Below, piece after piece: positions 21,451 through 58,340 of a stretch of 64,000 nt of DNA. A program made the translations under genes and the position numbers. The stretch comes from Catenuloplanes niger (lineage in GTDB: Bacteria; Actinomycetota; Actinomycetes; Mycobacteriales; Micromonosporaceae): contig NZ_JAVDYC010000001.1 of assembly GCF_031458255.1 (NCBI RefSeq), positions 5,465,001 through 5,529,000 of the forward strand. Direction: 5' to 3'. Numbering within the stretch: the stretch's first letter is position 1; every line of letters begins with the position of its first letter. A model generated the notes under the pieces. The model made no database searches. It was given only the letters and a program-made list of their open reading frames with translations, and was not told the DNA's origin.

Positions 21451-21525
21451 CGGATTTCCCGCTTCCGGCGTGGCCGGTTGCCGCACGCTCCCGCGGGCAC
21501 CGGTCGGCCGCGGGCGGCCTCCCTG
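21451..21525 (-). repeat. Dispersed extragenic element, copy C
   Basis: Read on the minus strand, this copy matches the element at 58251-58340 over about 75 bases: CAGGGAGGCCGCCCGCGGCC, then GACCGGTGCCCGCGGGAGCG, then CGCCGGAAGCGGGAAA. It lies between the 99-residue gene and the glycosidase gene, with copy A inverted 83 bases away. Confidence 0.75.
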
Positions 21526-21608
21526 CACGTTCCGCACGGGGCCGGGGCGAACCACGCCGTCCGCGCGGCGCGGCCGCGGGGTTTTCCGGTGCCCACCCTC
21601 GGATCCCG

Positions 21609-21685
21609 CAGGGAGGAGCGCCGGCGACGACCGGTGCCCGCGGGAGCGTGCGGCACGTGCGCGGCCGGGAGCGGGAAGATCGGGT
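21609..21685 (+). repeat. Dispersed extragenic element, copy A
   Basis: Plus-strand copy: GCAGGGAGGAGCGCC, then GACCGGTGCCCGCGGGAGCG, then GCCGGGAGCGGGAAGATCGG. It is inverted relative to copy C, so the two together could form a long hairpin. It ends just before the 3' end of the glycosidase gene. The 320-base gap 21381-21700 holds nothing else recognisable. Confidence 0.75.
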
Positions 21686-21700
21686 TCGGCCGCTTTTTCG

Positions 21701-22696
21701 TCAGACGGCTCTGGCGACCGCGATCGTGGTGGAGTCGCGCTGGCCGGCCTCGTAGAACATGTACGAGACGCCGTTGTCGGTGCCGAACGCGGGTGCGGCC
21801 GCGCGGTTGCGGTCGGGCGCGCCGGTCAGCGGGGTGTGGAAGACGCCGAGGTGGTTCTCGCGGTCGAAGGCGGGGCCGACCTCGGTGAGGTACATCCGGC
21901 CGGACCCGCCGTGGTAGACGACGTAGGCGGTGCCGTTGCGGGTGAGCAGGTGCGGGCCGCTGAGGTCGGTCTCGCCGTCCGGAGTGGGCGAGACCAGCGG
22001 GACCGGGTCGTACTGCCAGGTCAGACCGTCGGGGGACCAGCCCCAGAAGATCTTGCGGACGCCGGGCGCGACGCGGTGGTAGCCCATGAACACCATGACG
22101 TAGCGGGCGCCGAGCGCGGGGATCGAGTGCGCGAAGACGCGCGCGTAGGAGGCCTCGGTGATGTTCGGGACCATCGCGGTGGTCAACACCTCGCCGTGGT
22201 ACGTGTAGGTGATCCCGTCCGCGGAGACCGCCAGCCGGGTGGTGCTGTTCTCGCCGTGGAAGTACAGGTAGAAGCGCCGGCTCGGGGCGTGCCAGAGCAC
22301 GTGCGGGGACGACACGTGACTGACCGAGTAGTGCGGTGCCCAGTCGGCCGGGACGATCGGGTTCGCCGGGTGCTCGGTGAACCGGCCGGCCAGCGAGTCG
22401 CCGTAGGCGAGGCAGATGCCGCCGGGCGCGTTGTGCGGCGCGTACCAGAGGTAGTAGCGGCCGCGGTACGAACTGATCTTGTCGTAGACGCCGCGCACGC
22501 ACGGGAAGATCAGCTCGTTCGTCGGGTTGTAGGCCAGCGCGGACTTGGTGAACGGCGTGCCGAGGTAGCGGTAGCTCGGGAAGCCGGCCGGGCCGGCCGC
22601 GCGGGCGGGGGACGGGCTGCCGAGTGCGCCGGCCGTGCCGAGTGTGCCGGCCGTGCCGAGCAGGGCGGCGCCGCGCAGGACTGAGCGACGGTGCAT
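21701..22696 (-). CDS. Secreted five-bladed beta-propeller, glycoside hydrolase-like
   Basis: The 331-residue product begins MHRRSVLRGAALLGTAGTLG and has an Arg-Arg signal sequence ending at PARAAG, suggesting Tat export. The mature part shows propeller-type repeats with GRYYLWYAPHNAPGGICLAY, FYLYFHGENSTTRLAVSADG and YVVYHGGSGRMYLTEV, a pattern shared by GH43/GH117-like glycosidases and phosphorylases. Catalytic residues cannot be assigned with confidence. It is divergent from a lacI-type gene and two operator-like palindromes lie between, so it probably belongs to the sugar-uptake locus to the right. The sugar is unknown. Confidence 0.8.
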   Translation of the reverse strand: MHRRSVLRGAALLGTAGTLGTAGALGSPSPARAAGPAGFPSYRYLGTPFTKSALAYNPTNELIFPCVRGVYDKISSYRGRYYLWYAPHNAPGGICLAYGDSLAGRFTEHPANPIVPADWAPHYSVSHVSSPHVLWHAPSRRFYLYFHGENSTTRLAVSADGITYTYHGEVLTTAMVPNITEASYARVFAHSIPALGARYVMVFMGYHRVAPGVRKIFWGWSPDGLTWQYDPVPLVSPTPDGETDLSGPHLLTRNGTAYVVYHGGSGRMYLTEVGPAFDRENHLGVFHTPLTGAPDRNRAAAPAFGTDNGVSYMFYEAGQRDSTTIAVARAV

Positions 22697-22772
22697 GGGT
22701 CATGCCTCCGTTCAGTGACCAATGAGCGTGGTCGATGAGTCTCGGCTCGCCGGAGCCCGCGCGTCAAGAAGC

Positions 22773-22784
22773 TAATACGAATTA
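22773..22784. promoter_or_regulatory. LacI-type operator, proximal to the secreted hydrolase
   Basis: TAATACGAATTA (TAAT-N4-ATTA) lies 77 bases before the hydrolase start. The same palindrome occurs at 22841-22852, 68 bases away. Pairs of such sites are typical for LacI-family repressors. Confidence 0.7.
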
Positions 22785-22839
22785 TCAGCGGGAAAACCTT
22801 CCGGGCGACGGGGGTTGACGAACCGGCCGCGCGCCCTGC

Positions 22840-22853
22840 CTAATACGCATTAG
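22840..22853. promoter_or_regulatory. LacI-type operator overlapping the lacI-family promoter
   Basis: CTAATACGCATTAG is a near-perfect palindrome (CTAAT-N4-ATTAG). It coincides with the -10 position of a promoter whose -35 is TTGACG at 22815-22820 (spacing 18-20 depending on the -10 chosen). A repressor bound here would block transcription of its own gene. Confidence 0.75.
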
Positions 22854-22888
22854 CACCGATCTGGACCGACGAGGCGAGGCGACCCGGA

Positions 22889-23959
22889 GTGACGGCGGCA
22901 CGGAAGCGGATCACGCAGCAGGACATCGCGCGGATGACCGGCGTCAGTCAGGCGACGGTGTCGCTGGTGCTCAACGGGCGCACCGACGCGGACGTGCGGA
23001 TCGCGCCGGAGACGCGCGAGCGGGTGCTGGCCGCGATCCGCAGCACCGGTTACGTGGCCGACCCGATCGCGCGCCGGCTCGCCGACCGGCACAACCGGAT
23101 TCTCGGCGTGTTCACCTACGAGCCGGTCTTCCCGGCCGTGACCGGCGACTTCTTCCACCCGTTCCTGCTCGGCATCGAGGAGAGCGCGGAACGGCTCGGC
23201 TGCGACCTGCTGCTGTTCACCAGCGCACCGGTGGTGGACGGTCGCCGCCGGATCTTCCACCAGGACAACCGGTTGCGTCTGGCGGACGGCTGCATCCTGC
23301 TCGGCCGGTCGCTCGACCGCGACGAGCTGGCCCGGATGGTCGCGGAGGGGCAGCCGTTCGTGTCGGTCGGCCGGCGGGACGACGCGGGTGGGCCGGTGCC
23401 GTACGTGGGCGCGGACTATTCCGCGGCGACCGCGGCCGTGGTGGACCGCGCGGTCGCGGCCGGCCACCGCGAGCTGTGCTACCTGGGCGAGGGCGGGCGG
23501 ACCGAGTCGTCCGGCGGTGCGGCGGTGCGCGTGCCCGAGTCGTTCGCCGACCGGTTCGCGGGCTACCGGGACGCGGCGGTCCGCCACCGTCTCGTGCCGC
23601 GCCGGGCGCGCGCCGCCGGGCGTACCCCCGGTGCCGTTCTGGATCTGCTGATCGCGGACGGCGTGACGGCGGTGCTGGTCGAGGAGTTCGCGGACGGCGT
23701 GGCGCTGGCGGCCGTGGCGCGGGAGCGCGGGCTGGACCTCCCGGGCGACCTGTCCGTGCTGGTGCTCGGCGACCCGACCCGGCCGGCACCGACCGACGTG
23801 GACTTCTCCGGGTACCGGATCCCGCGCCGGGAGATGGGCCGGCAGGCGACCGAGGTGCTGACCGCGCTGATCGCGGGCGAGACGACCCGGGCGGACGCGC
23901 GCCGGCTGCTGCCGTGCGCGCCGGTCGAGGGCGTGACGCTGAGTGCACCGCGGACCTGA
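22889..23959 (+). CDS. LacI-family transcriptional regulator
   Basis: The 356-residue protein has the LacI helix-turn-helix at residues 8-27 (ITQQDIARMTGVSQATVSLV), the hinge helix (PIARRLADRH) and a periplasmic-binding-protein-like sugar-sensing domain. It begins with GTG at 22889. Two TAAT-N4-ATTA palindromes lie in the divergent control region, one over its own promoter. The downstream genes encode an FAD oxidoreductase and an ABC sugar importer in the same direction, so it most likely represses the whole locus until a specific sugar is present. The C-terminal codons merge into the 17-bp tandem repeat. Confidence 0.92.
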   Translation: MTAARKRITQQDIARMTGVSQATVSLVLNGRTDADVRIAPETRERVLAAIRSTGYVADPIARRLADRHNRILGVFTYEPVFPAVTGDFFHPFLLGIEESAERLGCDLLLFTSAPVVDGRRRIFHQDNRLRLADGCILLGRSLDRDELARMVAEGQPFVSVGRRDDAGGPVPYVGADYSAATAAVVDRAVAAGHRELCYLGEGGRTESSGGAAVRVPESFADRFAGYRDAAVRHRLVPRRARAAGRTPGAVLDLLIADGVTAVLVEEFADGVALAAVARERGLDLPGDLSVLVLGDPTRPAPTDVDFSGYRIPRREMGRQATEVLTALIAGETTRADARRLLPCAPVEGVTLSAPRT

Positions 23960-24059
23960 GTGCACCGCGGATCTGAGTGGGCCGCGGACCTGAGTGCACC
24001 GCGGATCTGAGTGGGCCGCGGACCTGAGTGCACCGCGGACGTGAGTGCACGGTCGAGCT
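23941..24059 (+). repeat. 17-bp tandem repeat, 7 copies
   Basis: Seven head-to-tail copies of GAGTGCACCGCGGACCT (variants GGATCT and GTGGGC alternate, the last copy is degenerate). The first copy encodes the last residues and stop codon of the LacI-type gene and the array fills the gap to the oxidoreductase gene. Each unit contains the palindrome CCGCGG. Confidence 0.9.
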
Positions 24060-24075
24060 TGGTGGAGGGAGACGC

Positions 24076-25665
24076 ATGGAGGCCGAGGTTCTGGTCGTGG
24101 GTGGCGGGCTCGGGGGAGTGGCCGCCGCGCTGAGCGCGCTGCGGGCCGGCCGGTCGGTGATCCTGACCGAGGAGTACGCGTGGCTCGGCGGGCAGCTGAC
24201 CAGCCAGGCGGTGCCGCCGGACGAGCACACCTGGGTCGAGCAGTTCGGCGTCACCGCGAGCTACCGGTCGTTGCGGGACAAGATCCGCGACTACTACCGC
24301 GTGCACTACCCGCTGACCGAGCGGTCCCGGGCGTGGCGGGAGCTGAACCCGGGCGCCGGCTGGGTGAGCCCGCTCTGTCACGAGCCCCGGGTGGCGGTCG
24401 CGGTGATCGAGGGGATGCTCGCGCCGTACCGGGGGTCCGGGCGGTTGCGGGTGCTCCAGCCGTACCGGCCGGTGTCGGCCACCTGCGACGGCGACCGGGT
24501 CACGTCGGTGACCGTGGACGGGCCGGACGGCGAGATCGTGCTGACCGCGCCGTACGTCCTGGACGCGACCGAGACCGGTGACCTGCTGCCGCTGACCGGC
24601 ACCGAGTACGTCACCGGCTTCGAGTCCGCGGCCGAGACCGGCGAGCCGTCCGCGCCCGGCGTCGCGCAGCCGGACAACATGCAGGCGGTCTCGGTCTGCT
24701 TCGCGGTCGACCACGTGGACGGCGACCACACCGTGGACAAGCCGGAGGGGTACGACTTCTGGCGCGCGTACAAGCCGGACTTCTGGGTCGGCCCGTTGCT
24801 GTCCTGGACCATGGTCAACCCGCGCACGCTGGAGCCGGCCGAGCGGTCGTTCACGCCGAACCCGGACGACGACCCGCTGGAGGTGCGGGCCGACCAGCGG
24901 GCGAACCCGGGCGACAGCAACCTGTGGACGTTCCGGCGGATTGCGGCGCGGCGGCAGTTCGAGCCGGGCTTCTACCCGAGCGACATCACGGTGGTGAACT
25001 GGCCGATCATCGACTACTTCGAGTCGCCGATCATCGACGTGCCGGACCCGGCCGCGCACATCGCCCGCGCGCGGCAGCTGTCCCGGTCGGTCTTCTACTG
25101 GCTGCAGACCGAGGCGCCGCGCCCGGACGGCGGCACCGGCTGGCCGGGCCTGCGGCTGCGCGGCGACGTCACCGGCGGGCCGGACGGGCTGGCGCAGGCG
25201 CCCTACATCCGCGAGTCGCGGCGGATCCGGGCGGAGTACACCGTGGTCGAGCAGGATCTCGCGCTGACGGTGCGCGGGGACGCCGGCGCGGTGCGCTACC
25301 CGGACTCGGTCGGCGTCGGCATGTACCGGATCGACCTGCACCCGTCGACCGGCGGCGACACCTACATCGACGTGGCGGCGTGCCCGTTCGAGATCCCCCT
25401 CGGCGCGCTGCTGCCCCAGCGGGTGGAGAACCTCCTGCCCGCCGGGAAGAACATCGGCACCACGCACATCACCAACGGTGCGTACCGCCTGCACCCGGTC
25501 GAGTGGAACGTCGGCGAGGTCGCCGGCCTCCTCGCCGACTTCTGCCTGGCCCGCGGCGTGGCACCGCGGGCCGTGCGGGACAACCCCGGCCTGCTGGCCG
25601 ACTTCCAGGCCCGGCTGATCGCGGCGGGCGTGGAGCTGCACTGGCCGGACATCTCCGGATATTGA
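24076..25665 (+). CDS. FAD-dependent oxidoreductase (FAD_oxidored / PF12831 type)
   Basis: The 529-residue protein starts with the dinucleotide-binding loop VLVVGGGLGGVAAALSAL and has the second flavin motif VENLLPAGKNIGTTHITNGA near the end, as in PF12831 oxidoreductases. The region DATETGDLLPLTG is also typical. Relatives are found in carbohydrate-degradation clusters, where they are thought to oxidise sugars or related alcohols, but the substrate is not established. The ATG at 24076 has GGAGGGAG 5 bases upstream. It lies between the LacI-type regulator and the importer genes, with 29 bases to the binding-protein gene, so it is part of the operon. Confidence 0.85.
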   Translation: MEAEVLVVGGGLGGVAAALSALRAGRSVILTEEYAWLGGQLTSQAVPPDEHTWVEQFGVTASYRSLRDKIRDYYRVHYPLTERSRAWRELNPGAGWVSPLCHEPRVAVAVIEGMLAPYRGSGRLRVLQPYRPVSATCDGDRVTSVTVDGPDGEIVLTAPYVLDATETGDLLPLTGTEYVTGFESAAETGEPSAPGVAQPDNMQAVSVCFAVDHVDGDHTVDKPEGYDFWRAYKPDFWVGPLLSWTMVNPRTLEPAERSFTPNPDDDPLEVRADQRANPGDSNLWTFRRIAARRQFEPGFYPSDITVVNWPIIDYFESPIIDVPDPAAHIARARQLSRSVFYWLQTEAPRPDGGTGWPGLRLRGDVTGGPDGLAQAPYIRESRRIRAEYTVVEQDLALTVRGDAGAVRYPDSVGVGMYRIDLHPSTGGDTYIDVAACPFEIPLGALLPQRVENLLPAGKNIGTTHITNGAYRLHPVEWNVGEVAGLLADFCLARGVAPRAVRDNPGLLADFQARLIAAGVELHWPDISGY

Positions 25666-25694
25666 TCTTATGCTGATGGGAAGGGCACTCCCTG

Positions 25695-26927
25695 ATGAGA
25701 TTCCGTGCGACGGCGGCGGCGCTGACGCTGCTCTGTCTGACCGCCTGTGGCGGTGAGCCCGGCACCGGCGGGCCACCCGAACTCCGGATGACCGTGTGGA
25801 CCGCGAACGCGGCCCACCTGAAACTGTTCGACGAGATCGGCGCCGCGTACGTGGCGGCGCACCCGGACCGCGCCTCGAAGATCACGTTCGACCCGCTGCC
25901 GTTCGAGCGCTACGTCACCACGCTCACCACCCAGCTGGCCGGCGGCAAGGGACCGGACCTGGCCTGGCTGCCGGAGAGCGCGGCGCCGGACTTCGTCGCG
26001 GCCGGCGCGCTGGTCCCGCTGGACGACGTGCTGGTCGAGCCGGACGACCTGAACCCGGCCACGCTGCGGCTGTGGCAGGCGGACGGGCAGACGTTCGGCT
26101 ACCCGTTCTCCAACTCGCCGTTCGGGATCTTCGTCAATAAGGACCTGCTGGCCGCGGCCGGGCAGCCGGTCCCGTCCGCCGGCTGGACCTGGGACCAGGC
26201 GATCGCGTCGGCCGCGGCCGTGCACGCGGCCACCGGGCGGGCCGGCCTGGTGGTGCGCGACTTCGACTACCGGATCTGGGACAACCTGGCCACGATGTGG
26301 ACCGGCTGGGGTGCGCGGGCCTGGAGCGAGGACGGCCGGACCTGCGGGTTCGACCAGGCGCCGATGGTCGACTTCATGACCTTCCTGCACCGGGCGATCT
26401 TCACGGATGCCGCGCTGCCCGGCCCCGGCACCACCGCGGACTTCTTCGCCGGGCAGGCGGCCATGACGGTCAGCCAGATCTCCCGGGCGTCGCTGCTGGA
26501 CGGCTCGTTCGCCTGGGACCTGGTGCCGCTGCCGGCCGGGCCGGCCGGGACCTACTCGGTGATCGGCCAGGGCGGCGTCGGGGTGCTCCGGCGCGGCGCG
26601 CACGCGGACACGGCCGCGGACTTCCTGGCGTTCTTCACCGATGTGGAGAACTCGGTGCGGCTGGCCGCGTTCTTCCCGCCACCGCGTACCTCGCTGCTCA
26701 CCGCGGAGACGCTGGCGAAGGCCAACCCCAAGCTGTCGCCCGCGCAGCTGCAGGCCGTGGTGATCGACGGGATCGCGAACGGCGTGGTCAAACCCAGCCA
26801 CACCGGCAACGCGCAGCTGACCCAGGAGGTGCGGGCGTCGCTCGACCCGCTCTGGGAGCCGGACGCGGACGTGCGGGCGGTGCTGTCCGGCGTCTGCGAC
26901 ACCATCGACCCGTTGCTGGCGACATGA
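25695..26927 (+). CDS. ABC transporter sugar-binding lipoprotein
   Basis: This 410-residue extracellular solute-binding protein has a lipoprotein signal with lipobox LTAC followed by GGEPG, so it is anchored outside the membrane. The body matches the family 1 sugar-binding proteins: FDPLPFERYVTTLTTQLAGG, PDLAWLPESAAPDFVAAGAL and a C-terminal helical part. It captures a sugar and delivers it to the two following permeases. Its stop overlaps the first permease start by 4 bases (ATGA). Confidence 0.9.
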   Translation: MRFRATAAALTLLCLTACGGEPGTGGPPELRMTVWTANAAHLKLFDEIGAAYVAAHPDRASKITFDPLPFERYVTTLTTQLAGGKGPDLAWLPESAAPDFVAAGALVPLDDVLVEPDDLNPATLRLWQADGQTFGYPFSNSPFGIFVNKDLLAAAGQPVPSAGWTWDQAIASAAAVHAATGRAGLVVRDFDYRIWDNLATMWTGWGARAWSEDGRTCGFDQAPMVDFMTFLHRAIFTDAALPGPGTTADFFAGQAAMTVSQISRASLLDGSFAWDLVPLPAGPAGTYSVIGQGGVGVLRRGAHADTAADFLAFFTDVENSVRLAAFFPPPRTSLLTAETLAKANPKLSPAQLQAVVIDGIANGVVKPSHTGNAQLTQEVRASLDPLWEPDADVRAVLSGVCDTIDPLLAT

Positions 26928-27835
26928 GCAGCGCCGAGGTGCCGAAGAGCGCGTTCTGGACGACGCGCCGGCGTGACCGTCTCGCCGGGTACCTCTTCGT
27001 CGCGCCACAGGTGGCCGGCATCGTGGTCTTCGTCCTCGTACCGCTCGTGCTGATCTTCTACTACAGCCTCTACGACTGGAACGTGCTGGCCGGGACGTTC
27101 ACGTTCACCGGCATGTCGAACTACCGGGACCTGGTCGCGGACCCGCGGCTGCCGTCGGTGCTGCGGACCACCGCGTTCTTCTGCGGCGGGCTGGTGCTGC
27201 TCAACATGGCGCTGGCACTGTTCCTGGCCGTGCTGCTCAACCAGCGGCTGCACGGCACCGCGGTGTTCCGGACGATCTTCTTCTCGCCGGTCGTGGTGTC
27301 GCTGGTCGCCTGGACCATCGTCTGGCAGTTCCTGCTGCAGGACGACGGCGGCATCAACGGCGCGCTCTCCGCGGTCGGGGCGGACGGGCCGAACTGGCTG
27401 CGCGGCGACGTCACGGCGCTGGTCTCGGTGATCGTGCTCCAGGTGATCAAGAACGTCGGGCTCAACATGGTGCTGTTCCTGGCCGCGCTGCAGGGCGTGC
27501 CGGCGCAGCTCTACGAGGCGGCGAGACTCGATGGCGCGTCCGCGTGGACCCGGTTCCGGCGGATCACGGTGCCGATGATCAGCCCGACCATCCTGCTCGC
27601 CTCGATCATCACGGTGGTCGGGTCGCTGCAGATCTTCGCGCAGATCGCGGTGCTCACCCAGGGCGGGCCGGGCACGTCCACCACGGTGCTCGTCTACTAC
27701 CTCTACCAGCAGGCCTTCCAGTTCCACGACTTCGGGTACGGCGCCACGCTCTCCGTGCTGCTGTTCCTGATCGTGCTGGTGCTGACCGTGATCCAGTGGC
27801 AGACGCGCCGGAGGTGGGTCGAATATGAGCGTTAG
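26924..27835 (+). CDS. ABC sugar transporter permease (MalF/UgpA-like)
   Basis: The 303-residue inner-membrane protein has six membrane helices and the EAA loop EAARLDGASAWTRFRRITVP that docks the ATPase. It pairs with the following permease as a heterodimer. ATG at 26924 overlaps the stop of the binding-protein gene. No ATPase gene is in the locus; actinomycetes commonly use a shared MsiK-type ATPase encoded elsewhere. Confidence 0.9.
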   Translation: MSSAEVPKSAFWTTRRRDRLAGYLFVAPQVAGIVVFVLVPLVLIFYYSLYDWNVLAGTFTFTGMSNYRDLVADPRLPSVLRTTAFFCGGLVLLNMALALFLAVLLNQRLHGTAVFRTIFFSPVVVSLVAWTIVWQFLLQDDGGINGALSAVGADGPNWLRGDVTALVSVIVLQVIKNVGLNMVLFLAALQGVPAQLYEAARLDGASAWTRFRRITVPMISPTILLASIITVVGSLQIFAQIAVLTQGGPGTSTTVLVYYLYQQAFQFHDFGYGATLSVLLFLIVLVLTVIQWQTRRRWVEYER

Positions 27836-28655
27836 GGCCAAGACCGCGCTGTACGGACTGCTGTGCCTGATGGCGGTGCCGTTCGTCTTCCCGACCTGGT
27901 GGATGGTCACCTCGTCGGTCAAGCCGGTCAGCGAGATCCTCTCCTGGCCGCCGTCGCCGGTGCCGACCACGTTCTCGCTCGACGGGTACCGCGAGGTCTT
28001 CGAGATCCAGCCGTTCGCGCAGCAGTACTTCAACAGCGCCTACATCGCGCTGGTGGTGACGGTCGGGACCATGGCGGTGTCCGCGCTGGCCGGGTACGCG
28101 TTCGCCCGGATCCGCTTCCCCGGCGCGAACCCGCTGTTCCTGTTCGTGCTCACCGGGCTGCTCATCCCGAGCGAGGTGACGATCGTGCCGCTGTTCCAGA
28201 TGTTCAACACCTGGGGCATGATCGACACGCACTGGCCGCTGATCCTGGTGCCGATCCTGGGCGCGCCGAGTGTGCTGGCCACGTTCATCATGCGGCAGTT
28301 CTTCCTGGCGCTGCCGGACGAGCTGGAGGAGGCCGGGCGGCTCGACGGGCTCGGCCGGTTCGCGATCTTCTGGCGGATCGCGCTGCCGCTGGCCCGGCCG
28401 GCGCTCGGTGCGGTCGCGATCTTCACGTTCCTGCACAGCTGGAACCTCTACCTGGAACCGATCGTCTTCCTCACCACGCCGGCCAACTTCACGCTGCCGC
28501 AGGCGCTGACCCAGTTCGTCGACGCGTACGGCGGGCCGATGTGGGACGTGCAGCTGTCCGCCGCGTCGATGACCGCGATCCCGGTGCTGATCGTGTTCGT
28601 GATCGCGCAGAGGCAGTTCATCGAAGGGCTGGCCCACACCGGCCTGAAGGGCTGA
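27825..28655 (+). CDS. ABC sugar transporter permease (MalG/UgpE-like)
   Basis: The 276-residue protein is the second channel subunit, with six helices and the EAA loop ELEEAGRLDGLGRFAIFWRI. It overlaps the previous permease gene by 11 bases, indicating coupled translation. It is the last gene of the LacI-controlled operon and is followed by a hairpin at 28667-28698. Confidence 0.9.
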   Translation: MSVRAKTALYGLLCLMAVPFVFPTWWMVTSSVKPVSEILSWPPSPVPTTFSLDGYREVFEIQPFAQQYFNSAYIALVVTVGTMAVSALAGYAFARIRFPGANPLFLFVLTGLLIPSEVTIVPLFQMFNTWGMIDTHWPLILVPILGAPSVLATFIMRQFFLALPDELEEAGRLDGLGRFAIFWRIALPLARPALGAVAIFTFLHSWNLYLEPIVFLTTPANFTLPQALTQFVDAYGGPMWDVQLSAASMTAIPVLIVFVIAQRQFIEGLAHTGLKG

Positions 28656-28666
28656 TCGCCCCGGTC

Positions 28667-28698
28667 GTCTCCCCGGTTGTGCCGGCGGCCGGGGGGAC
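28667..28698. terminator. Bidirectional terminator between converging genes
   Basis: GTCTCCCCGG (28667-28676) pairs with CCGGGGGGAC (28689-28698), 10 bp with one G-T pair. It sits between the permease gene and the converging MerR gene and could serve both. Confidence 0.55.
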
Positions 28699-28706
28699 GA
28701 ACCGGA

Positions 28707-29339
28707 TCACGAGCGCTTGAACAGGTGCACCGAGGTGTGCTCGTGTGCCAGGCGGCGCAGCGCGGCCTGCAGCGCGTCCCCGACGATCGTGCCGATCACC
28801 GCGCCGGTGACCACGTCGTCCGGCGAGGGCTTGGTGGCGATGCCGCGCAGGTCGGACTCCGCGATCATCTCGGCGGCCCGGGCGTACCGGTCGATCTCGG
28901 TCATCAGGTAGCCGACGCCCAGCTCGCGGAACGTCAGCATCACCTCGGCCAGCCGGCGGCGGCCCGGGCTCTCCGGATCGACCTGCCAGCCCCAGCGGGC
29001 GAGCAGCGCGTCCACGTCCGTCATCGCGGCGGCCAGCTCCGCGCTCGGCGCGTCCTCCCGCACGCCGGCCAGCGGGTAGAGCGTGCGGCCCAGGCGGTGG
29101 TGCATGTCCCAGTCGGCCTGGTCGTCGAGGTCGCGGAGCACCTCGCGGATGGTGGCCAGCGGCAGCCGTCCCACCTCCAGCAGCGCCCGCACCAGCCGCA
29201 GCCGGCGCACGTGCCGCTCGTCGTAACTGGCCTGGTTCGGGCTGGTCAGCTCGCCGGCCGGCAGCAGCCCCTCACGCAGGTAGTACTTGATCGTCGGCAC
29301 CGACACCCCGGTCGTGCGACTCAGCTCCGCGACACGCAT
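28707..29339 (-). CDS. MerR-family transcriptional regulator
   Basis: The 210-residue protein has the MerR winged helix at the N-terminus (MRVAELSRTTGVSVPTIKYY, then REGLLPAGELTSPNQASYDE) and a helical effector domain without the cysteine pattern of metal sensors. It is therefore likely to respond to a small molecule or to act in stress control. It is divergent from two membrane-protein genes, and a 9-bp inverted repeat lies between. ATG at 29339 is preceded by a purine-rich GGGGCAGGGA sequence. Confidence 0.88.
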   Translation of the reverse strand: MRVAELSRTTGVSVPTIKYYLREGLLPAGELTSPNQASYDERHVRRLRLVRALLEVGRLPLATIREVLRDLDDQADWDMHHRLGRTLYPLAGVREDAPSAELAAAMTDVDALLARWGWQVDPESPGRRRLAEVMLTFRELGVGYLMTEIDRYARAAEMIAESDLRGIATKPSPDDVVTGAVIGTIVGDALQAALRRLAHEHTSVHLFKRS

Positions 29340-34560: not shown

Positions 34561-34567
34561 CCGGCAC

Positions 34568-34728
34568 GGGCGGACGCCCGCGCCGCCCACGGGCGGATGC
34601 CCGCGCCGCCCACGGGCGGATGCCCGCGCCGCCCACGGGCGGATGCCCGCGCCGCCCACGGGCGGATGCCCGCGCCGCCCACGGGCGGATGCCCGCGCCG
34701 CCCACGGGCGGATGCCCGCGCCGCCCCG
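34568..34728 (+). repeat. 23-bp tandem repeat, 7 copies
   Basis: Six nearly identical copies of a 23-bp unit, GGGCGGATGCCCGCGCCGCC plus CAC, with a variant last copy. The unit contains GGGC-N4-GCCC, so each copy can form a small stem. Spacing is exactly constant and there are no unique spacers, so this is a minisatellite, not CRISPR. Confidence 0.95.
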
Positions 34729-34934: not shown

Positions 34935-35152
34935 GCCGGAAAGGATCTTCGATCTTCCGGGTCGGATGCGGGTTCGACATGTCGGGCGTGCCGTGCCGGT
35001 CCGCCGTCCCGCCGATCTGCCGTCCCGCCGGTCCGGAAGCGTGCCGGTGGCTCGGCTGGTGCCGGGCGCGCCGTGACCTCGCCTCGCGGGGCGACGTCAC
35101 GGCGCGGAGCGGCCGGGGCCGGCGGTGGCCGGACGGGACCACCGGGAAAGGT

Positions 35153-35197
35153 GAGCCCGCGGGAGCGTGCGCACGTGGGCACGCCGGCAGCGGGTAT
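35153..35197 (+). repeat. Dispersed extragenic element, copy E
   Basis: Shares GCCCGCGGGAGCGTGCG, CACGTG and GCACGCCGGCAGCGGG with copies A-D in the same order and spacing. It ends just before the 3' end of tsaD. Confidence 0.6.
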
Positions 35198-35212
35198 CCA
35201 CGGTCCCCGGGT

Positions 35213-36211
35213 TCAGAAGCTCTCGATCGTGAGGGACGTCTGCGGCTGGACCGGGGTGTGGTTGTCGCTGGCCAGGTAGTCCCAGGCGGCCATGGCGATC
35301 ATGGCGCCGTTGTCCGTGGACCACTTCAGCGGCGGCAGGCAGAGGCGGACGCCGGCCTCGTCGCAGAGCTGGGCGGCGGCGGCGCGCAGCGGCGGGGAGG
35401 CGGCCACGCCGCCCACGATGACCAGCGAGGACGACGGGTACGCCGCCAGCGCGCGGCGGCACTTGGCGATCAGCACGTCCATGCAGGCGGCGACGAAGGA
35501 GGCGGCGACGTCCTCGACCTTCCAGCCCTTCTCGGCCTCCAGGTAGCGCATCACGGCGCTCTTCAGGCCGGAGAACGAGAAGTCCAGGCCGTGGTTGATG
35601 ACCGGGCGCGGGAACGGGATGTTGGGGATGCCGGCGCCGGCCATCCGGTCGACGACGGGGCCGCCGGGGTAGCCGAGGCCGAGCATGCGGGAGACCTTGT
35701 CGTAGGCCTCGCCGACGGAGTCGTCGAGCGTGTTGCCGATCAGCTTGATGTCGGACGGCCCGTTCATCCGGGCGAGCAGCGTGTGGCCGCCGGAGACCAA
35801 CAGGATCATCGCGGGGAACTCGACGCGTTGCTCCTCCAGGTCGGCGCTGCGCAGGTGGCCGCGGAGGTGGTTGACGCCGACGATCGGGACGTTCCAGCCG
35901 GCGGCCAGGCCGGACGCGGTGTCCAGGCCGACCATCAGCGAGCCGATCAGGCCGGGACCGCGGGTGACGCCGATCGCCTCCAGCTCGCGCGGGTTGACGC
36001 CGGAGTCCTCCAGCACCATCCGTACCGTCGGAATGATCTTGTCGATGTGGGCGCGGCTGGCGACCTCGGGGTAGACGCCGCCGTAGCGGTTGTGGATGAG
36101 CACCTGCGACGCGACCGCGGACGCGACCACCTGGCCGCGCTCGTCGACCAGGCCGACGGCCGTGTCGTCGCAGGACGTCTCGATGCCGAGGATCAGGCCG
36201 TTGGACGTCAT
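35213..36211 (-). CDS. tsaD: tRNA threonylcarbamoyltransferase, catalytic subunit
   Basis: TsaD transfers the threonylcarbamoyl group to A37 of ANN-reading tRNAs, acting with TsaB and TsaE. The 332-residue protein has the ASKHA fold with VNHLRGH (metal ligands His115 and His119), the nucleotide motif LLVSGGHTLL and FSFSGLKSAV. The start overlaps the TsaC-like gene by 4 bases, so the four genes tsaE-tsaB-tsaC-tsaD on this strand are probably one operon. It is the last of them. Confidence 0.95.
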   Translation of the reverse strand: MTSNGLILGIETSCDDTAVGLVDERGQVVASAVASQVLIHNRYGGVYPEVASRAHIDKIIPTVRMVLEDSGVNPRELEAIGVTRGPGLIGSLMVGLDTASGLAAGWNVPIVGVNHLRGHLRSADLEEQRVEFPAMILLVSGGHTLLARMNGPSDIKLIGNTLDDSVGEAYDKVSRMLGLGYPGGPVVDRMAGAGIPNIPFPRPVINHGLDFSFSGLKSAVMRYLEAEKGWKVEDVAASFVAACMDVLIAKCRRALAAYPSSSLVIVGGVAASPPLRAAAAQLCDEAGVRLCLPPLKWSTDNGAMIAMAAWDYLASDNHTPVQPQTSLTIESF

Positions 36212-36825
36212 GACAGCACCTTCTCGATCTGGTCGGCGGGGATCTGGCCGACGCGCTCGATCCGCGGGGCCGGCAGGTTGCAGTTGACCAGCGTCGACGG
36301 GACGGACTGGCGCGGGCCGCCGTCGAGCACGACGTCGGGCTCGCCGTCCAGCATCGCGAGGATGTCCGGGACCGTCTCCGGCGTCTCCTGCGCGTGCGCG
36401 TTCGCGCTGGTGACGAGCAGCGGGCCGGTCTCGCGGAGGATGGCCAGCAGCGCCTCCTCCTTCGGGATGCGCACCGCGATCTCGTCCCGCCCGGCCAGCC
36501 ACTCCGGCGCGGCGGCCGGGTCGACGCCGAACGCGATCGTGATCGGGCCGGGCGCGAACGCGTCGAGCAGCGTGCGCGCGTCCGCGGTGATCACCACGCC
36601 GAGCGTGGGCAGCTGGTCGACGCCGGCCACCATGATCGGCAGGTTCTTCGCGGCCGGCCGGTTCTTCAGCGCGAAGATGCGGGCGGCGGCCTCGGGACGG
36701 CCGGCCGCGACCGCGAGGCCGTAGACGGTGTCCGTCGGGACCAGCGCGACGCCGCCGGCCAGCAGGCTGTCCCGCGCGGCGGCGACGATCTCGGGCGTCA
36801 CGTCGGTGACGTTCTGCAGGATCAC
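36208..36825 (-). CDS. Second TsaC/Sua5-type threonylcarbamoyl-AMP synthase paralogue
   Basis: The 205-residue protein has the YrdC-domain pocket GGVALVPTDTVYGLAVAAGR, then LKNRPAAKNLPIMV (the K-R-x(3)-K region) and TSANAHAQETPETVPDI. It occupies the site between tsaB and tsaD where rimI normally stands, and is coupled to both neighbours by 4-base overlaps (GTGA and ATGA). Function is likely the same as that of the Sua5 gene at 33307, or a variant with different regulation. No C-terminal Sua5 domain is present, so it is the short TsaC-like form. Confidence 0.88.
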   Translation of the reverse strand: MILQNVTDVTPEIVAAARDSLLAGGVALVPTDTVYGLAVAAGRPEAAARIFALKNRPAAKNLPIMVAGVDQLPTLGVVITADARTLLDAFAPGPITIAFGVDPAAAPEWLAGRDEIAVRIPKEEALLAILRETGPLLVTSANAHAQETPETVPDILAMLDGEPDVVLDGGPRQSVPSTLVNCNLPAPRIERVGQIPADQIEKVLS

Positions 36826-45701: not shown

Positions 45702-45770
45702 GTCCGTTCCCTCGGAAGCCCCTTCATTACGGTGGGGACGGCACCGAGACGACAGAAGAGAAGGCTGAGG

Positions 45771-51952: not shown

Positions 51953-52534
51953 TCACTGTGCGTCGCGGCCGGCGCCCGGCCTCCAGAGCACGTCGCCGTC
52001 CGGGTTCGCGACCCGGGACAGGATGAACAGCAGGTCGGACAGCCGGTTGAGATACTTCGCCGGCAGCGTGCCGGTCCGCTCGCCGTCCACCTCGATCAGT
52101 GCCCAGGCCGACCGCTCGGCCCGGCGCGCGACCGTGCGCGCCACGTGCAGCAGCGCGGCGCCGGGCGTGCCGCCGGGCAGCACGAACGAGTCGAGCGGCG
52201 CGCAGCGCTCGTTGAACTCGTCGCACCAGCCCTCCAGTCGCGTCACGTACTCCTCGGTGACCCGGAGCGGCTCCCACGCCGGATTCTCCGCGACGGGATT
52301 CCCGAGATCCGCGCCCACGTCGAACAGGTCGTTCTGGATCTGCCCGAGCACCGCCCGGATCTCCGCCGTCAGCCCGCCCATCGCGACCGCCACGCCGATC
52401 GCCGCGTTCGTCTCGTCCACGTCCGCGTAGGCGGCGATCCGCGGCGACGTCTTCGGCACCAGCTCGTTGTCGACCAGGCGGGTGCTGCCCCCGTCGCCGG
52501 CCTTGGTGTAGATGCGCGTCAGATGAACAGCCAT
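51953..52534 (-). CDS. Cob(I)alamin adenosyltransferase, PduO type
   Basis: The enzyme attaches adenosyl from ATP to cobalamin to make coenzyme B12. The 193-residue protein has the ATP-binding start TRIYTKAGDGGSTRL, DETNAAIGVAVA, and the conserved FVLPGGTPGAALLHVARTVA, then RRAERSAWAL, of the PduO class. TAGGGT lies 6 bases before the ATG at 52534, so the transcript is probably leaderless. The order atpC-DUF2550-PduO-murA is conserved in mycobacteria too. Confidence 0.93.
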   Translation of the reverse strand: MAVHLTRIYTKAGDGGSTRLVDNELVPKTSPRIAAYADVDETNAAIGVAVAMGGLTAEIRAVLGQIQNDLFDVGADLGNPVAENPAWEPLRVTEEYVTRLEGWCDEFNERCAPLDSFVLPGGTPGAALLHVARTVARRAERSAWALIEVDGERTGTLPAKYLNRLSDLLFILSRVANPDGDVLWRPGAGRDAQ

Positions 52535-52540
52535 GCCGAC

Positions 52541-52546: not shown

Positions 52547-52595
52547 GGCGGTGCCCCGCGGCCGGGCTAACCGCAGATCAAGAGCCGGACAGTCG

Positions 52596-52650
52596 CTCTT
52601 CCCGCTTCCGGCGTGGCGCGGCCCGTTCGCTCCCGCGGGCCAACCGCGCC
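52596..52650 (-). repeat. Dispersed extragenic element, copy D
   Basis: On the minus strand: GGCCCGCGGGAGCGAACGGG, then CGCCACGCCGGAAGCGGGAA, the same order as the other copies. It lies in the PduO-murA gap. Confidence 0.7.
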
Positions 52651-52732
52651 GAGGGCTCCGGCTCCGCCAGGGCTCCGCTCCGCCCGCGGCGGCGGAGCCG
52701 GTGCCGCCGTGGCCAGGGCCGCGCCGGCTCCC

Positions 52733-52930
52733 GTCGGGGCGAGCGTCGCGTCGCGCGCCCGCGTTCCGCCGCGGGTTCCCGTCGTGGCGTGCGCCGCGTG
52801 CCCGCGTTCTTGCCGCGGGTTCGCGTCGTGGCGCGTGTTGCGTCGCCTGCTCGGCGTTCGGCCGGCGATTCCCGTCGTGGCGTGTGTCGCGTGCCCGCGT
52901 TCCGTTCCGCGGGTGGGCTCTCGTCGTGGG
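52733..52930 (+). repeat. Degenerate ~44-49 bp tandem repeat upstream of murA
   Basis: GTCGTGGCG-type cores recur at 52733 (variant), 52781, 52825, 52874 and 52923, spaced 48, 44, 49 and 49 bases, each followed by GCGTGCCCGCGTTCC-like sequence and GCCGCGGGTTC. The copies diverge by up to a third. The 534-base PduO-murA gap holds this array, copy D and the murA promoter, but no convincing gene. Confidence 0.6.
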
Positions 52931-53056
52931 TCGCGTCGCGCGATTCGCGTCCGCGCCGGGCCCGGGGAGTGTCCGGGCGCCGGTGCCGCGTACTCGGGTG
53001 CGCGGGGTGCCGGGTCTTCTCGGTCTCATCGCGCGGGTGGTGGCGTGGGCCGCCCA

Positions 53057-53062: not shown

Positions 53063-53068
53063 GGGTCC

Positions 53069-54364
53069 GTGGATCAGATCTCGGTGAACGGTGGGGCCCG
53101 GCTCGCGGGCGAGGTGCGGGTGGCCGGGGCGAAGAACTCGGCGCTGAAACTGATGGCCGCGGCGCTGCTGGCGCCGGGGCGGTCGGTGATCGCCAACGTC
53201 CCGCGGATCACCGATATCGCCATCATGGCGGAGGTGCTCGACCGGCTCGGCTGCACCGTCGACTTCATCGACCCGGACGTCAACTCGCCGGTCCGCGAGG
53301 TCGTCATCGACGTGCCGGAGAAGCTCGGCACCGACGCCGACTACGACCTGGTCCGGCGCCTGCGCGCGTCGATCGCGGTGCTCGGGCCGCTGCTGGCGCG
53401 CTGCGGCTACGTGCGGGTCGCCCACCCCGGCGGCGACGCGATCGGCTCGCGCGGGCTGGACATGCACGTGGCCGGGCTGGCCCGGATGGGCGCGGACATC
53501 ACCGGGGAGCACGGCTTCGTGATCGCGTCCGCGGCCGGCGGGCTGCGCGGCGCCACGATATGGCTGGACTTCCCCAGCGTCGGCGCCACCGAGAACCTGC
53601 TGATGGCCGCGGTGCTGGCCAAGGGCGTCACCGAGATCGACAACGCGGCGCGCGAGCCGGAGATCGTGGACATCTGCGCGATGCTGACCGCGATGGGCGC
53701 GCGGATCGAGGGCGCCGGCACGTCCACGCTGCGGATCGAGGGCGTGTCCGAGCTGCGGCCGGTCGTGCACGCCGCGGTCGGCGACCGGATCGTGGCCGGC
53801 ACCTGGGCCTACGGCGCCGCGATGACGCGCGGGGACGTGACCGTGCAGGGTATCGACCCGGGCTTCCTCGAGATCGCGCTGGACAAGCTGGTGACCGCCG
53901 GGTGCACGGTCACCATGGCGCCCGACTCGTTCCGGGTGCGGATGGACCGGCGCCCGCGGTCGGTCGACATCGTCACGCTGCCGTACCCCGGGTTCGCCAC
54001 CGACCTGCTGCCGATGGCGATCGGCCTGGCCGCGGTCAGCGAGGGCGCGTCGCTGATCACGGAGAACATCTTCGACGGCCGGTTCATGTTCGTGAACGAG
54101 ATGGCCCGCCTCGGCGCCGAGATCAAGACCGACGGGCACCACGCGGTGGTCCGCGGCCGGGAACGGCTCTCCGGCGCGCCGGTCCGCGCCACCGACATCC
54201 GCGCCGGTGCCGGGCTGGTCATCGCGGGCCTGTGCGCGGACGGCGTCACCGAGGTCGGCCACGTGCACCACATCGACCGCGGCTACCCGAACTTCGTCGC
54301 GGACCTGCGGGCGCTCGGCGTGGCGGTGCACCGCTCCGAGGCACCGGACGACCTCGACTACTGA
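53069..54364 (+). CDS. murA: UDP-N-acetylglucosamine 1-carboxyvinyltransferase (fosfomycin-insensitive type)
   Basis: MurA adds enolpyruvate from PEP to UDP-GlcNAc, the first committed step of peptidoglycan synthesis. The 431-residue protein has the paired inside-out barrels with [37 protein letters not shown] and the catalytic loop [15 protein letters not shown]. In E. coli that loop is PGGCAIG with Cys115, the target of fosfomycin; here the residue is Asp123, as in mycobacterial MurA, so intrinsic fosfomycin resistance is expected. GTG at 53069 is leaderless-type. Confidence 0.95.
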
Positions 54365-54382
54365 ACCGGCCCATGGCGCCGC

Positions 54383-54546
54383 TCTGCCGGGCCGCGCCGG
54401 TCTGCCGGGCCGCGCCGGTCTGCCGGGCCGCGCCGGTCTGCCGGGCCGCGCCGGTCTGCCGGGCCGCGCCGGTCTGCCGGGCCGCGCCGGTCTGTGCGGG
54501 CCGTGCCGGTCTGTGCGGGCCGTGCCGGTCTGTTGAGCCGGGCCGG
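54383..54546 (+). repeat. 18-bp tandem repeat, 6 exact plus 3 variant copies
   Basis: Six exact head-to-tail copies of TCTGCCGGGCCGCGCCGG from 54383 to 54490 are followed by three diverged units (TCTGTGCGGGCCGTGCCGG twice and TCTGTTGAGCCGGGCCGG). The array fills most of the gap between murA and the converging gene at 54580. It encodes nothing evident. Confidence 0.95.
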
Positions 54547-54579
54547 TTCACGGCGTTGCCGGCCGGCCCGGTGGTCTCG

Positions 54580-54936: not shown

Positions 54937-54997
54937 GCGCCCATCTTGCCCCGGAAGATCCGGGGCGCACCGGAGGTTCTCCAAAGTCCTCCTCACG

Positions 54998-55010
54998 TAA
55001 GGTCGCCTTA
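54998..55010 (+). promoter_or_regulatory. Palindrome with -10-like box upstream of the dehydrogenase gene
   Basis: TAAGGTCGCCTTA is a 5-bp inverted repeat around TCG; its first half (TAAGGT) matches a -10 hexamer. It lies 24 bases before the GTG at 55034. Confidence 0.4.
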
Positions 55011-55033
55011 GTGATCGTTCAAGGGAGGGCAAC

Positions 55034-56451: not shown

Positions 56452-56458
56452 GCCCGCC

Positions 56459-56511
56459 ATGATGCGGATCCGCAATTTTTCTTGCAAGCCTGAAACGTGC
56501 CCGGTGATGCT
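56459..56511. promoter_or_regulatory. Overlapping divergent promoters with shared palindromic -35 and operator
   Basis: CTTGCAAG (56481-56488) is palindromic and so can act as TTGCAA -35 on both strands. Leftward, CATCAT (56464-56459) stands 17 bases away and 7 bases before the XRE start. Rightward, GATGCT (56506-56511) stands 18 bases away and 6 bases before the methyltransferase start. TGCGGATCCGCA (56463-56474), a perfect 12-bp palindrome, overlaps the leftward promoter and is a likely operator. Confidence 0.6.
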
Positions 56512-56517
56512 GGCGGC

Positions 56518-57147
56518 ATGACCACCACAACCGACGACGCCGCGGCGTTCTGGGAGAAGCACTATCGAGGCCGGCAGCCCGGTGGGCGGGTCAACCCGCT
56601 GCTCGCCGAGGTCGCCGCGCCGCTGCGGCCGGGCGTCGCGCTCGACCTCGGGTGCGGCACCGGCGGCGACACGCTCTGGCTCGCCCGGCGCGGCTGGCAG
56701 GTCACCGCGGTCGACATCGCCCACGCGGCCGTCGACCGGCTGCGTGCCCACGCCGCCGCACCGGACCTGACCGGCCGGATCACCGCGGAACGGCACGACC
56801 TCGCGGTCACGTTCCCCGGCGGCACCTTCGACCTGGTGTCCGCGCAGTACTTCCACACGCGGTTCGCCCTGGACCGGGCGCGGGTGCTGCGGTCCGCGGC
56901 GGCCGCGCTGCGCCCCGGCGGACTGCTGCTGGTCGTCGACCACGGCTCCACCGCACCGTGGTCGTGGAACCAGGACCCGGACGCGTACTTCCCCACGCCC
57001 GCCGAGGTCGCGGCCTCGCTCGAACTGGACCCGGTGCGCTGGTCCGTCGTCCGCGCCGACATGCCCCGCCGCCGCGCCACCGGCCCCGGCGGCCGGACCG
57101 CCACCGTCACCGACAACGTCCTCCTCATCCGCCGGACCGCCGGATGA
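56518..57147 (+). CDS. SAM-dependent methyltransferase (class I)
   Basis: The 209-residue protein has the SAM-binding motif VALDLGCGTGGDTLWLARRG, then QVTAVDIAHAAVDRLRAHAA and the post-motif FDLVSAQYFHTRF. It resembles Tehb/thiopurine-type small-molecule methyltransferases. ATG at 56518 has GATGCT 6 bases upstream. It is divergent from the XRE-cupin gene and coupled by ATGA to the DinB gene. The substrate is unknown. Confidence 0.88.
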   Translation: MTTTTDDAAAFWEKHYRGRQPGGRVNPLLAEVAAPLRPGVALDLGCGTGGDTLWLARRGWQVTAVDIAHAAVDRLRAHAAAPDLTGRITAERHDLAVTFPGGTFDLVSAQYFHTRFALDRARVLRSAAAALRPGGLLLVVDHGSTAPWSWNQDPDAYFPTPAEVAASLELDPVRWSVVRADMPRRRATGPGGRTATVTDNVLLIRRTAG

Positions 57148-57911
57148 CCGCCGCCGACCCCTCCGCCGCACCGCCCGGCGCGGTTCGCGGGAAGCAGGCA
57201 CCGGCGGGCGCCACGATGCCGGATGCGGCGGTCCGCGAGCAGCGTGCACCGGCGGTGCCGTCTGACGTCGCGGCACCGGAGGCGGGCCGCGGGAACCGCC
57301 CGCCGACGGCAGCGGTCGATGCCGCGGCGCCGGTCGATGCTGCGCCGGTCGCGGGTCGCGGGAACCGGCGGCCGACGGCAGCGGTCGATGCCGTGGCGCC
57401 GGAGGCGGTGGCCGTTCCGCGGAAGCGGCGGCCGAGGACGAGGGACGCCGGGCCGGCGTGGACCGATCCGGGGGAGAAGGCGACGTTGCGCGGGTTCCTG
57501 GACTATCTGCGGAACGCGGTGGTGGAGAAGGTCGCGGACGTGCCGGAGCCGGCGGTGCGCGCGGCCGGCGTCCCGTCCGGGACCAACCTGCTCGGGCTGG
57601 TCAAGCATCTGGTGGCGGTGGAGCGGTTCTACTTCCTGGGCGAGCCGATCACGAACCTGCGCCGCACCCTGCGGCCGACGGGCGGCGAGACGGTCGAGGG
57701 GCTGGTCGCGGACTACCGGCGGGCGATCGCGGCGGCGAACGAGGTCATCGACGGCTGGGCCGACCTGGCCGATCCCGCGCCGCGCCCGCCGGGTCGCGGC
57801 CTGCCGCCGACGCGGCGATGGGTACTGGTGCACATGATCGAGGAGACCGGCCGCCACGCCGGCCACGCCGACATCATCCGCGAGCGCATCGACGGCTCCA
57901 CCGGCCGCTGA
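57144..57911 (+). CDS. DinB/DUF664-family protein with long low-complexity N-terminus
   Basis: The 255-residue product has about 100 residues of Ala/Pro/Arg-rich sequence at the start, including a repeated AGRGNRxPTAAVDA. A DinB/DUF664 four-helix domain follows (EKATLRGFLDYLRNAVVEKV, GLVKHLVAVERFYFLGEP, HMIEETGRHAGHADIIRERI), with the His ligands expected for a divalent metal. Actinobacterial members are probable mycothiol-dependent S-transferases. The N-terminal extension is unusual and may be a repeat expansion. Translation is coupled to the methyltransferase. Confidence 0.82.
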   Translation: MTAADPSAAPPGAVRGKQAPAGATMPDAAVREQRAPAVPSDVAAPEAGRGNRPPTAAVDAAAPVDAAPVAGRGNRRPTAAVDAVAPEAVAVPRKRRPRTRDAGPAWTDPGEKATLRGFLDYLRNAVVEKVADVPEPAVRAAGVPSGTNLLGLVKHLVAVERFYFLGEPITNLRRTLRPTGGETVEGLVADYRRAIAAANEVIDGWADLADPAPRPPGRGLPPTRRWVLVHMIEETGRHAGHADIIRERIDGSTGR

Positions 57912-58032
57912 CCGGCCTTATACCGAAATTTCGGGCGCGGCGTGCCCGGGCGCCAAGAACCTCGACATCTTGCGTCGGCCGGCTCGCGCCACCGAAGTCG
58001 GGTGCCGGCCGGGCCGGGCCGGCAGCCGGAGG

Positions 58033-58210
58033 CGGGCGCCGGGTGGGTCGAGTCAGAGGCCCGGGTTGGGGGCCGGCTGGGTCGAATCAGAGACCCGGGT
58101 TGGGGGCCGGCTGGGTCGAATCAGAGACCCGGGCCGGGAGCCGGCTGGGTCGAATCAAAAGTCCGGGCCGGGAGCCGGCTGAGTTGAAACAGAAGTCCGG
58201 GCCGGGAGCC
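58033..58210 (+). repeat. 34-bp tandem repeat, 5 copies
   Basis: GCCGGCTGGGTCGAATCAGA followed by GACCCGGGTTGGGG or CCGGGCCGGGAG recurs with exact 34-base spacing at 58047, 58081, 58115, 58149 and 58183. Copies change gradually (AAAGTCC, GAAACAGAAGTCC). It fills the gap after the DinB gene, immediately before copy B of the dispersed element. Confidence 0.9.
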
Positions 58211-58250
58211 GGCCCGGGGGTGGGTCTGTCGTGGGCCACGGCGGGACTGA

Positions 58251-58340
58251 CAGGGAGGCCGCCCGCGGCCGACCGGTGCCCGCGGGAGCATGCGGAACGG
58301 GACCGCGCCGGAAGTGGGAAAGCCGGTGTGGAACGGGTTT
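58251..58340 (+). repeat. Dispersed extragenic element, copy B
   Basis: The longest copy: CAGGGAGGCCGCCCGCGGCC, GACCGGTGCCCGCGGGAGCA, TGCGGAACGGGACCGCGCCG, GAAGTGGGAAAGCCGG. It matches copy C (minus strand) over about 75 bases with few changes. It directly abuts the end of the ABC permease gene. Confidence 0.8.

Follow-up and report, generated by a model that had tools for sequence, protein, structure and literature searches.

A dispersed family of bulged-hairpin elements that often faces stop codons in Catenuloplanes niger and other Micromonosporaceae

Results

The 64,000-nucleotide stretch of Catenuloplanes niger DNA studied here (contig NZ_JAVDYC010000001.1, positions 5,465,001 to 5,529,000; hereafter the window) contains five copies, named A to E, of a short repeat that belongs to a dispersed family of elements, many of which face the stop codon of a neighboring gene. 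An earlier reading, made from the letters of the window only (the sequence-only reading), had located these five copies, and all of them are found where it placed them, with cores starting at 21498 (minus), 21636 (plus), 35155 (plus), 52640 (minus), and 58278 (plus). They all lie between predicted genes, as it had claimed, and searching the 400 kb around them with a profile recovers these five as the only copies in the window. The copies, and the genes that three of them face, are the following:

21445..21545, minus strand: copy A, type 1 (GGCCGCCCGCGGCC 5' module), core GCCCGCGGGAGC at 21498-21487
21589..21688, plus strand: copy B, type 2 (GGAGCGCCGGCGACG 5' module), core at 21636-21647
21701..22696, minus strand: gene faced by copy B at its 3' end, with a weak match to glycosyl hydrolase 43, below the curated cut-off
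35149..35203, plus strand: copy C, core (35155-35166) and tail, lacking any type 1-3 module
35213..36502, minus strand: tsaD-like gene faced by copy C at its 3' end
52587..52718, minus strand: copy D, type 3 (long 5' module), core at 52640-52629
58231..58330, plus strand: copy E, type 1, core at 58278-58289
58341..59126, minus strand: ABC-2 transporter gene faced by copy E at its 3' end

The plan of the element comprises an optional 5' module, a stem (P1), an invariant bulge GGGAGC, a variable middle, the second arm of P1, and a tail AARATC, with a core of ~50 nt that extends to ~100-130 nt when the module is present. The second P1 arm ends 25 nt ahead of the stop codon of gene 21701-22696(-) in copy B and 22 nt ahead of that of the ABC-2 transporter gene in copy E, while copy C lies 18 nt ahead of the tsaD stop codon and is also present at the orthologous site of a related genome (G067). 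The 3' end of copy A points toward the start codon of gene 21081-21380(-), and copy D is flanked by the divergent genes for a cobalamin adenosyltransferase, 51953-52534(-), and EPSP synthase, 53069-54364(+), a context that is rare (5 of the 53 C. niger copies having both neighbors).

Two descriptive points of the sequence-only reading need correction. The agreement over ~75 bases that it assigned to copies B and C is really one between A and E, at 91% identity by blastn; B and E are 82% identical, and copies C and D do not appear in the list of 43 blastn matches, from a search that scored the best 40 of 454 candidates. The string CCCGCGGG, which it took for a possible palindromic end, sits inside the element. 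Tandem repeats, which it had placed beside three of the copies, occur close to E (57999-58213) and D (52726-52940); A has a 13-bp repeat next to it (21413-21442), and ahead of C arrays stop ~115 bp away. A 23-bp tandem repeat in seven near-perfect copies (99% matches) occupies 34565-34726.

The right part of the Catenuloplanes element reads GCCCGCGGGAGC-AYKCGG-N9/10-CGCCGGAAGCGGG-AARATC, and its left part, approximately GTGACCACCGCGGAACCGG, resembles the right block by eye. Within the left part there is a junction between ACCGG and T, which is empty in module-less copies, is occupied by CAGGGAGG and a short palindrome in types 1 and 2, and holds a long module around CGGAGCGCCRGCGGAG in type 3; some of the type 3 modules lie within a ~13-bp stem whose sequence differs among copies. 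Across 163 copies the 9-10 nt spacer within the core takes 115 different forms, and the blocks around it are invariant; of 190 copies in all, the 27 that deviated from the pattern are not counted here. The same plan of P1 stem, invariant GGGAGC bulge, inner hairpin, and P1 arm is seen in other genera, and the inner stem (P2) is degenerate in Catenuloplanes.

The 9,742,698-bp C. niger genome holds 140 exact matches to the 16-base core (67 plus, 73 minus), and the reversed pattern used as a control does not occur at all, which places the repeat far above chance. The expectation of more copies in the genome and in relatives was thus borne out, given that the same core is found across the genus. 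Searches of ~400-kb blocks of four species with a core profile at E-value 0.01 gave 20, 21, 30, and 22 copies, with no match in the reversed blocks up to E 1; relaxing E from 0.01 to 1 added 0, 0, 0, and 6 matches, so that degraded copies are few. Extrapolated at 20 per 400 kb, and if the block is typical, a C. niger genome would hold ~490 copies; in a whole-genome model search the best 150 of 34,040 candidates were scored and all 150 were matches. The family is largely extragenic, with 0 of 59 distinct C. niger copies, 3 of 47 from C. japonicus (NRRL B-16061, genome G006), and 2 of 45 Phytohabitans matches lying inside genes, as positioned by a simple codon-usage gene finder.

A 17-base form of the core was found in 13 of 300 Micromonosporaceae genomes, including all five Catenuloplanes genomes (106 to 233 copies each) and five of six genomes of a second genus, which we infer to be Phytohabitans (10 to 80 copies). 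Single 17-mer matches in three genomes of a third genus (L061-L063) came without the second block and were left out of the stop-spacing count. With a sequence model (R1), 42 of 150 family genomes had matches at E 0.01, a large share of these being weak, isolated ones. A structure model built from several genera (R2) was matched 3 to 54 times per genome in ten genomes from seven other genera; the training of R2 drew on six of these seven genera and eight of the ten genomes, and the gain over R1 is therefore partly built in. In an order-wide sample of 298 genomes, with the best 19 candidates per genome scored, two had matches at E 0.001, both of them Catenuloplanes.

The position of the copies relative to genes is strongly skewed. 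In the C. niger block an element is present in 11 of 52 convergent gaps, 6 of 234 codirectional gaps, and 1 of 52 divergent gaps, and over the four blocks 55 of 88 copies lie in convergent gaps, with the 3' side nearer to a gene in 46 of these 55 (p = 4e-7). The same sidedness is found in convergent gaps of C. niger (28/35), C. japonicus (22/25), other Catenuloplanes (8/9), and Phytohabitans (16/18), the block set and the C. niger set overlapping in part. In the C. niger block 13 of 20 elements are on the minus strand and 217 of 338 genes on the plus strand, indicating that the strand of the element follows that of the gene it faces. A bias relative to the replication strand, which had been an impression from coordinates, was dropped.

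The 3' end lies 0-20 nt from the stop codon in 21 of the 41 C. niger copies that face one, and the equivalent distance to a start codon was found in 0/12, 0/6, 0/3, 0/21, and 1/9 (Phytohabitans) of the start-facing copies. Among the 193 distinct copies that face a stop codon within 200 nt, the distance from the second P1 arm to the stop is at most 30 nt in 105 and peaks at 11 nt, with 20 copies at that spacing against 5 at 10 nt and 5 at 12 nt, although some of the 20 are orthologues and do not represent independent events. This peak is carried by Catenuloplanes (15/110), with 2/35 in Phytohabitans and 3/48 in other genera; at 9-13 nt there are 2 Phytohabitans copies and 12 of other genera.

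Comparison with related genomes, whose genes have median identities of 94.0, 92.5, and 90.1% to those of C. niger (300, 287, and 289 pairs), indicates how the copies persist. Where both neighbors of a C. niger copy could be mapped, the share of filled gaps was 14/15 in G067, 11/14 in G084, and 6/13 in G047, and the orthologous elements face the same gene, often at the same distance. In 67 orthologous pairs the type of 5' module agrees in 42% (18% for non-orthologues), the spacer is 52% identical (45%), and the upstream flanks are strongly diverged (44% versus 34%), with the two blocks nearly invariant. That the blocks are kept while spacer, module, and flanks change points to selection at each site, which would explain both the kept blocks and the varied spacers, and recombination at the module junction is likely to act in addition. 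A recent burst from one master copy was rejected, because a master would have copied its spacer along with the blocks.

Empty sites also exist. At the site of copy D, in both G047 and G006, the alignments on either side meet and leave no space for an element, and at the site of copies A and B G006 has ~8 bp where C. niger has ~318; the flanks are too diverged for target-site duplications to be recognized, and ACCGG repeats are present at the module junction only. Within 21408-28717 of the window, ~7 kb running from the A/B site to 28718 are without a counterpart among the matches listed for the orthologous location in G067. G047 has ~80-bp tandem arrays of which the element forms the repeating unit (L092 ~1990-2400; block positions 45748-45999 and 371959-372183), and at positions 222650 and 244753 of the G084 block there are tandem duplications that span the last 20-30 bases of the neighboring gene and an element remnant.

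The arms of P1 alternate among copies as complementary pairs (CCCGC:GCGGG, CGCGC:GCGCG, and YCCGG:CCGGG). Among 44 aligned sequences, drawn from eight genera, one of the P1 pairs is never broken, being C-G in 24 and G-C in 20, and the covariation of 0.153, compared with 0.081 after shuffling, was reached by 0 of 500 shuffles. A further 41 matches from 40 loci, in an alignment that was fitted to the structure and mixes two registers, divide at this pair into 22 with C-G and 19 with G-C. The P1 stem is well supported by these data as a real feature, and P2 and the 5' hairpin are partly supported. For the 5' hairpin (P0), stems of at least 8 pairs occur in 66/177, 35/69, and 20/53 copies, versus 53, 18, and 13 in mononucleotide shuffles, and in 28/74 Phytohabitans copies versus 29; because this is only modestly above the shuffles, the hairpin is claimed for some copies only. 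No Rfam covariance model matched 58200-58400 up to E 5, and the only match in the window at the gathering score is the actinobacterial L31 ribosomal protein leader RNA at 15871-15918 (RF03158, 57 bits).

The balance of G.U and A.C pairs was used to ask which strand would carry the folded RNA. On the element strand the G.U:A.C counts in P1 are 23:6 in Catenuloplanes and 26:1 in other genera, in a test that takes the register with the most standard pairs and in which related copies are not independent; over seven pairs of the Catenuloplanes P1 the count is 24:13, and further tests gave 26:14 (alignment A3), 28:6 (Phytohabitans P0 and P2), and 8:2 and 6:4 (P0). The balance favors the element strand in P1, though not uniformly. 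Since wobble pairs are kept on the element strand, the RNA would be one that enters the faced gene backwards.

The genes abutted by an element also differ in their stop codons. At 0-12 nt from the element these are TGA 12, TAG 22, and TAA 14, against TGA 57, TAG 24, and TAA 7 at 31-200 nt (p = 1e-5); overall, TGA ends 59 of 126 abutted genes versus 532 of 733 in the background, being lowest at 0-12 nt (12/48), and TAA ends 27 of 126 versus 49 of 733. In Phytohabitans alone the TAA difference (2/28 versus 9/235) is not significant. Across many loci the excess of TAA and TAG beside elements was seen to weaken as distance grows. This shift could arise from selection on termination near a structure or from the kind of gene involved. 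Abutted genes have slightly higher codon-use scores in all five comparisons; two of these overlap in their genes.

Relation to known repeats and to mobile DNA

The sequence-only reading proposed an undescribed, extragenic, dispersed family, mobile or similar to repetitive extragenic palindromic (REP) sequences, and the extragenic, dispersed, and REP-like character is supported. The family has apparently not been described before: the literature searches listed no paper naming it, and the papers listed as containing an 11-base string of its core are by title unrelated. The proposal of mobility fares less well, given that orthologous copies frequently persist at one and the same stop codon and that the variety of spacers is unlike fresh copies of one master. 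For REP-associated tyrosine transposases (RAYTs) of the IS200 type, which had been suggested as a partner, the PF01797 model gave 0 matches in the C. niger genome at E 0.1, in a search whose control was positive in 8 of 14 genomes, and such an enzyme was rejected as the mover. No blastn match for copy E was found in plasmids or phages; one exact match in viral contigs (L422) is without the second block and was taken as chance. Terminal inverted repeats as in miniature inverted-repeat transposable elements were absent by eye from copies with 130 bp of flanks, the P1 arms being internal.

In PMC3733652, REPs are described as sequences of 20-40 bp, tagged by GTAG or CGTC, that lie predominantly between unidirectional or convergent open reading frames (ORFs); in two species, most of those in convergent gaps are no more than 20 bp away from an ORF 3' end. 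The present elements resemble these REPs and the bacterial interspersed mosaic elements of the GTAG and CGTC super-families in being extragenic, of high copy number, hairpin-forming, and located next to ORF 3' ends, in many cases in convergent gaps, and in inverted pairs (PMC3733652). They differ from what is described there in their length of 50-130 bp rather than 20-40, in having an invariant bulge (11-nt) and a variable spacer but no simple palindrome, in showing by eye no GTAG or CGTC tetranucleotide at an end of aligned copies and having no RAYT, in their one-sided preferred stop spacing, and in their Micromonosporaceae host ('actino' occurs 0 times in PMC3733652). With the REP doublets (REPINs) and RAYTs (PMC3116915) they share inverted pairs of a short repeat and within-genome families, but no IS200-like transposase was found and many of the pairs look like one copy per gene end.

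Like intrinsic bidirectional terminators, the elements form a hairpin between convergent genes; unlike these, they have AARATC and not a T-tract after P1, they contain a long invariant sequence, and terminator-like sites coexist with them. BOX and MIRU repeats are modular, ~100 bp long, and intergenic, and differ from the present element in position and structure. Because tag, size, and transposase are not common to both, we do not file the family as REP and regard it as REP-like but separate, consisting of constrained gene-end elements.

Discussion

Our first choice among the explanations, ahead of a 3' untranslated region (UTR) function and of mobility, is that the element is a gene-border element against antisense read-through, to which we give a rough probability of 0.3. 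The preference for convergent gaps, the 11-nt spacing, the constraint on the blocks, the pairing of P1, and the strand of its wobble pairs lead us to it. A transcript from the convergent neighbor would enter the faced gene backwards, and in this RNA the P1 stem, bulge, and inner hairpin would fold just before the border of that gene. A protein, or the polymerase, might then read the invariant bulge, so that the transcript would be ended or cut there and antisense RNA kept out of the faced gene. Each gene of a convergent pair could have its own copy, which would account for many of the minus-then-plus pairs. Perhaps, then, the element ends or limits transcription that enters a gene backwards.

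Several observations weigh against this explanation. Among copies that have both neighbors, a third to a half lie outside convergent gaps (18/53 in C. niger, 14/39 in C. japonicus, 17/35 in Phytohabitans, and 33/88 in the blocks), and in the window copies B, C, and E obey the stop-facing rule and A and D are exceptions. Canonical terminator-like sites are found at 10 of 42 abutted ends and 14 of 58 opposite ends, compared with 33 of 158 convergent gaps without an element and 87 of 435 codirectional ends; the element therefore seems to have replaced no terminator, and a canonical terminator function by replacement is unsupported. By eye, several gaps hold a separate convergent-pair hairpin, with or without an element. 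On the structural side, the covariation of 0.179 in the 41-match alignment is exceeded by a control slid by two columns (0.187), and RNAalifold predicts no P1-P2 in the alignment. On the side of strand, the P1 count in Phytohabitans is 5:28, with the P2 arm taken as the partner in 27 of 58 copies and a register that is probably wrong; the 5' module gives 9:21 in Catenuloplanes and 5:8 in C. japonicus; and alignment A4, out-of-register pairs included, gives 26:22.

A structure on the sense strand, in the 3'-UTR of the faced gene, is a doubtful but serious alternative. The stem ~11 nt past the stop would protect the end of the mRNA or aid termination, as proposed for REPs, and a distance of ~11 nt past the stop is near the leading edge of the terminating ribosome. 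The favored distance from a single gene's stop codon, the shift in stop codon use near the element, and the slightly higher codon-use scores are all in line with it. Nonetheless, the P1 wobble pairs favor the opposite strand, the structure has no T-tract after it, and the 90 nt past the stop fold no more stably at abutted ends (-37.6 kcal/mol versus -44.8, -41.0, and -38.8 for the three other classes).

Equally doubtful, and equally serious, is the alternative of non-autonomous mobility: the element would be a single-strand hairpin transferred in trans by some enzyme with a preference for the 3' ends of genes, and recombination between copies would swap the modules. Its hundreds of dispersed copies, the stem with a bulge, and the inverted pairs would fit, as would the C. 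niger copies whose mapped gaps are empty (1/15 in G067, 3/14 in G084, and 7/13 in G047) and the modules, which by eye look like insertions into module-less copies at the ACCGG/T junction. The genome holds no PF01797 gene, however, the spacers are diverse and degraded copies few, plasmids and phages gave no match, and the elements are kept at orthologous stop codons despite strong neutral change.

A double-stranded DNA site for a chromosome protein of the gyrase, nucleoid, or condensin type, placed between convergent genes where positive supercoils gather, is considerably less plausible. REPs are known as gyrase sites, and convergent enrichment and two conserved sequence blocks at fixed spacing agree with such a role, but the changes in P1 preserve pairing and not sequence, and topology needs no one-sided stop spacing. 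That the elements are functionless by-products of replication slippage and gene conversion at gene ends is very improbable, since, for all the tandem arrays in G047 and the G084 duplications that take in the last bases of the faced gene, conversion would homogenize a core spacer that stays varied, and spacing and orientation recur across several genera.

Returning to the gene-border explanation, we suggest, tentatively and at less than even odds, that the family is a new cis-acting class of the Micromonosporaceae: a GGGAGC-bulged hairpin that sits at a favored distance from the stop codon at hundreds of gene ends, restrains antisense invasion (or else influences termination), shifts stop codon use, and is read by some factor. 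The element may thus mark or protect gene borders. The gene ends of GC-rich actinomycetes are poorly understood, and the shift of stop codons beside the element is directly testable. The family would provide a handle on how convergent genes stay apart or, alternatively, on how REP-like sequences persist without a RAYT.

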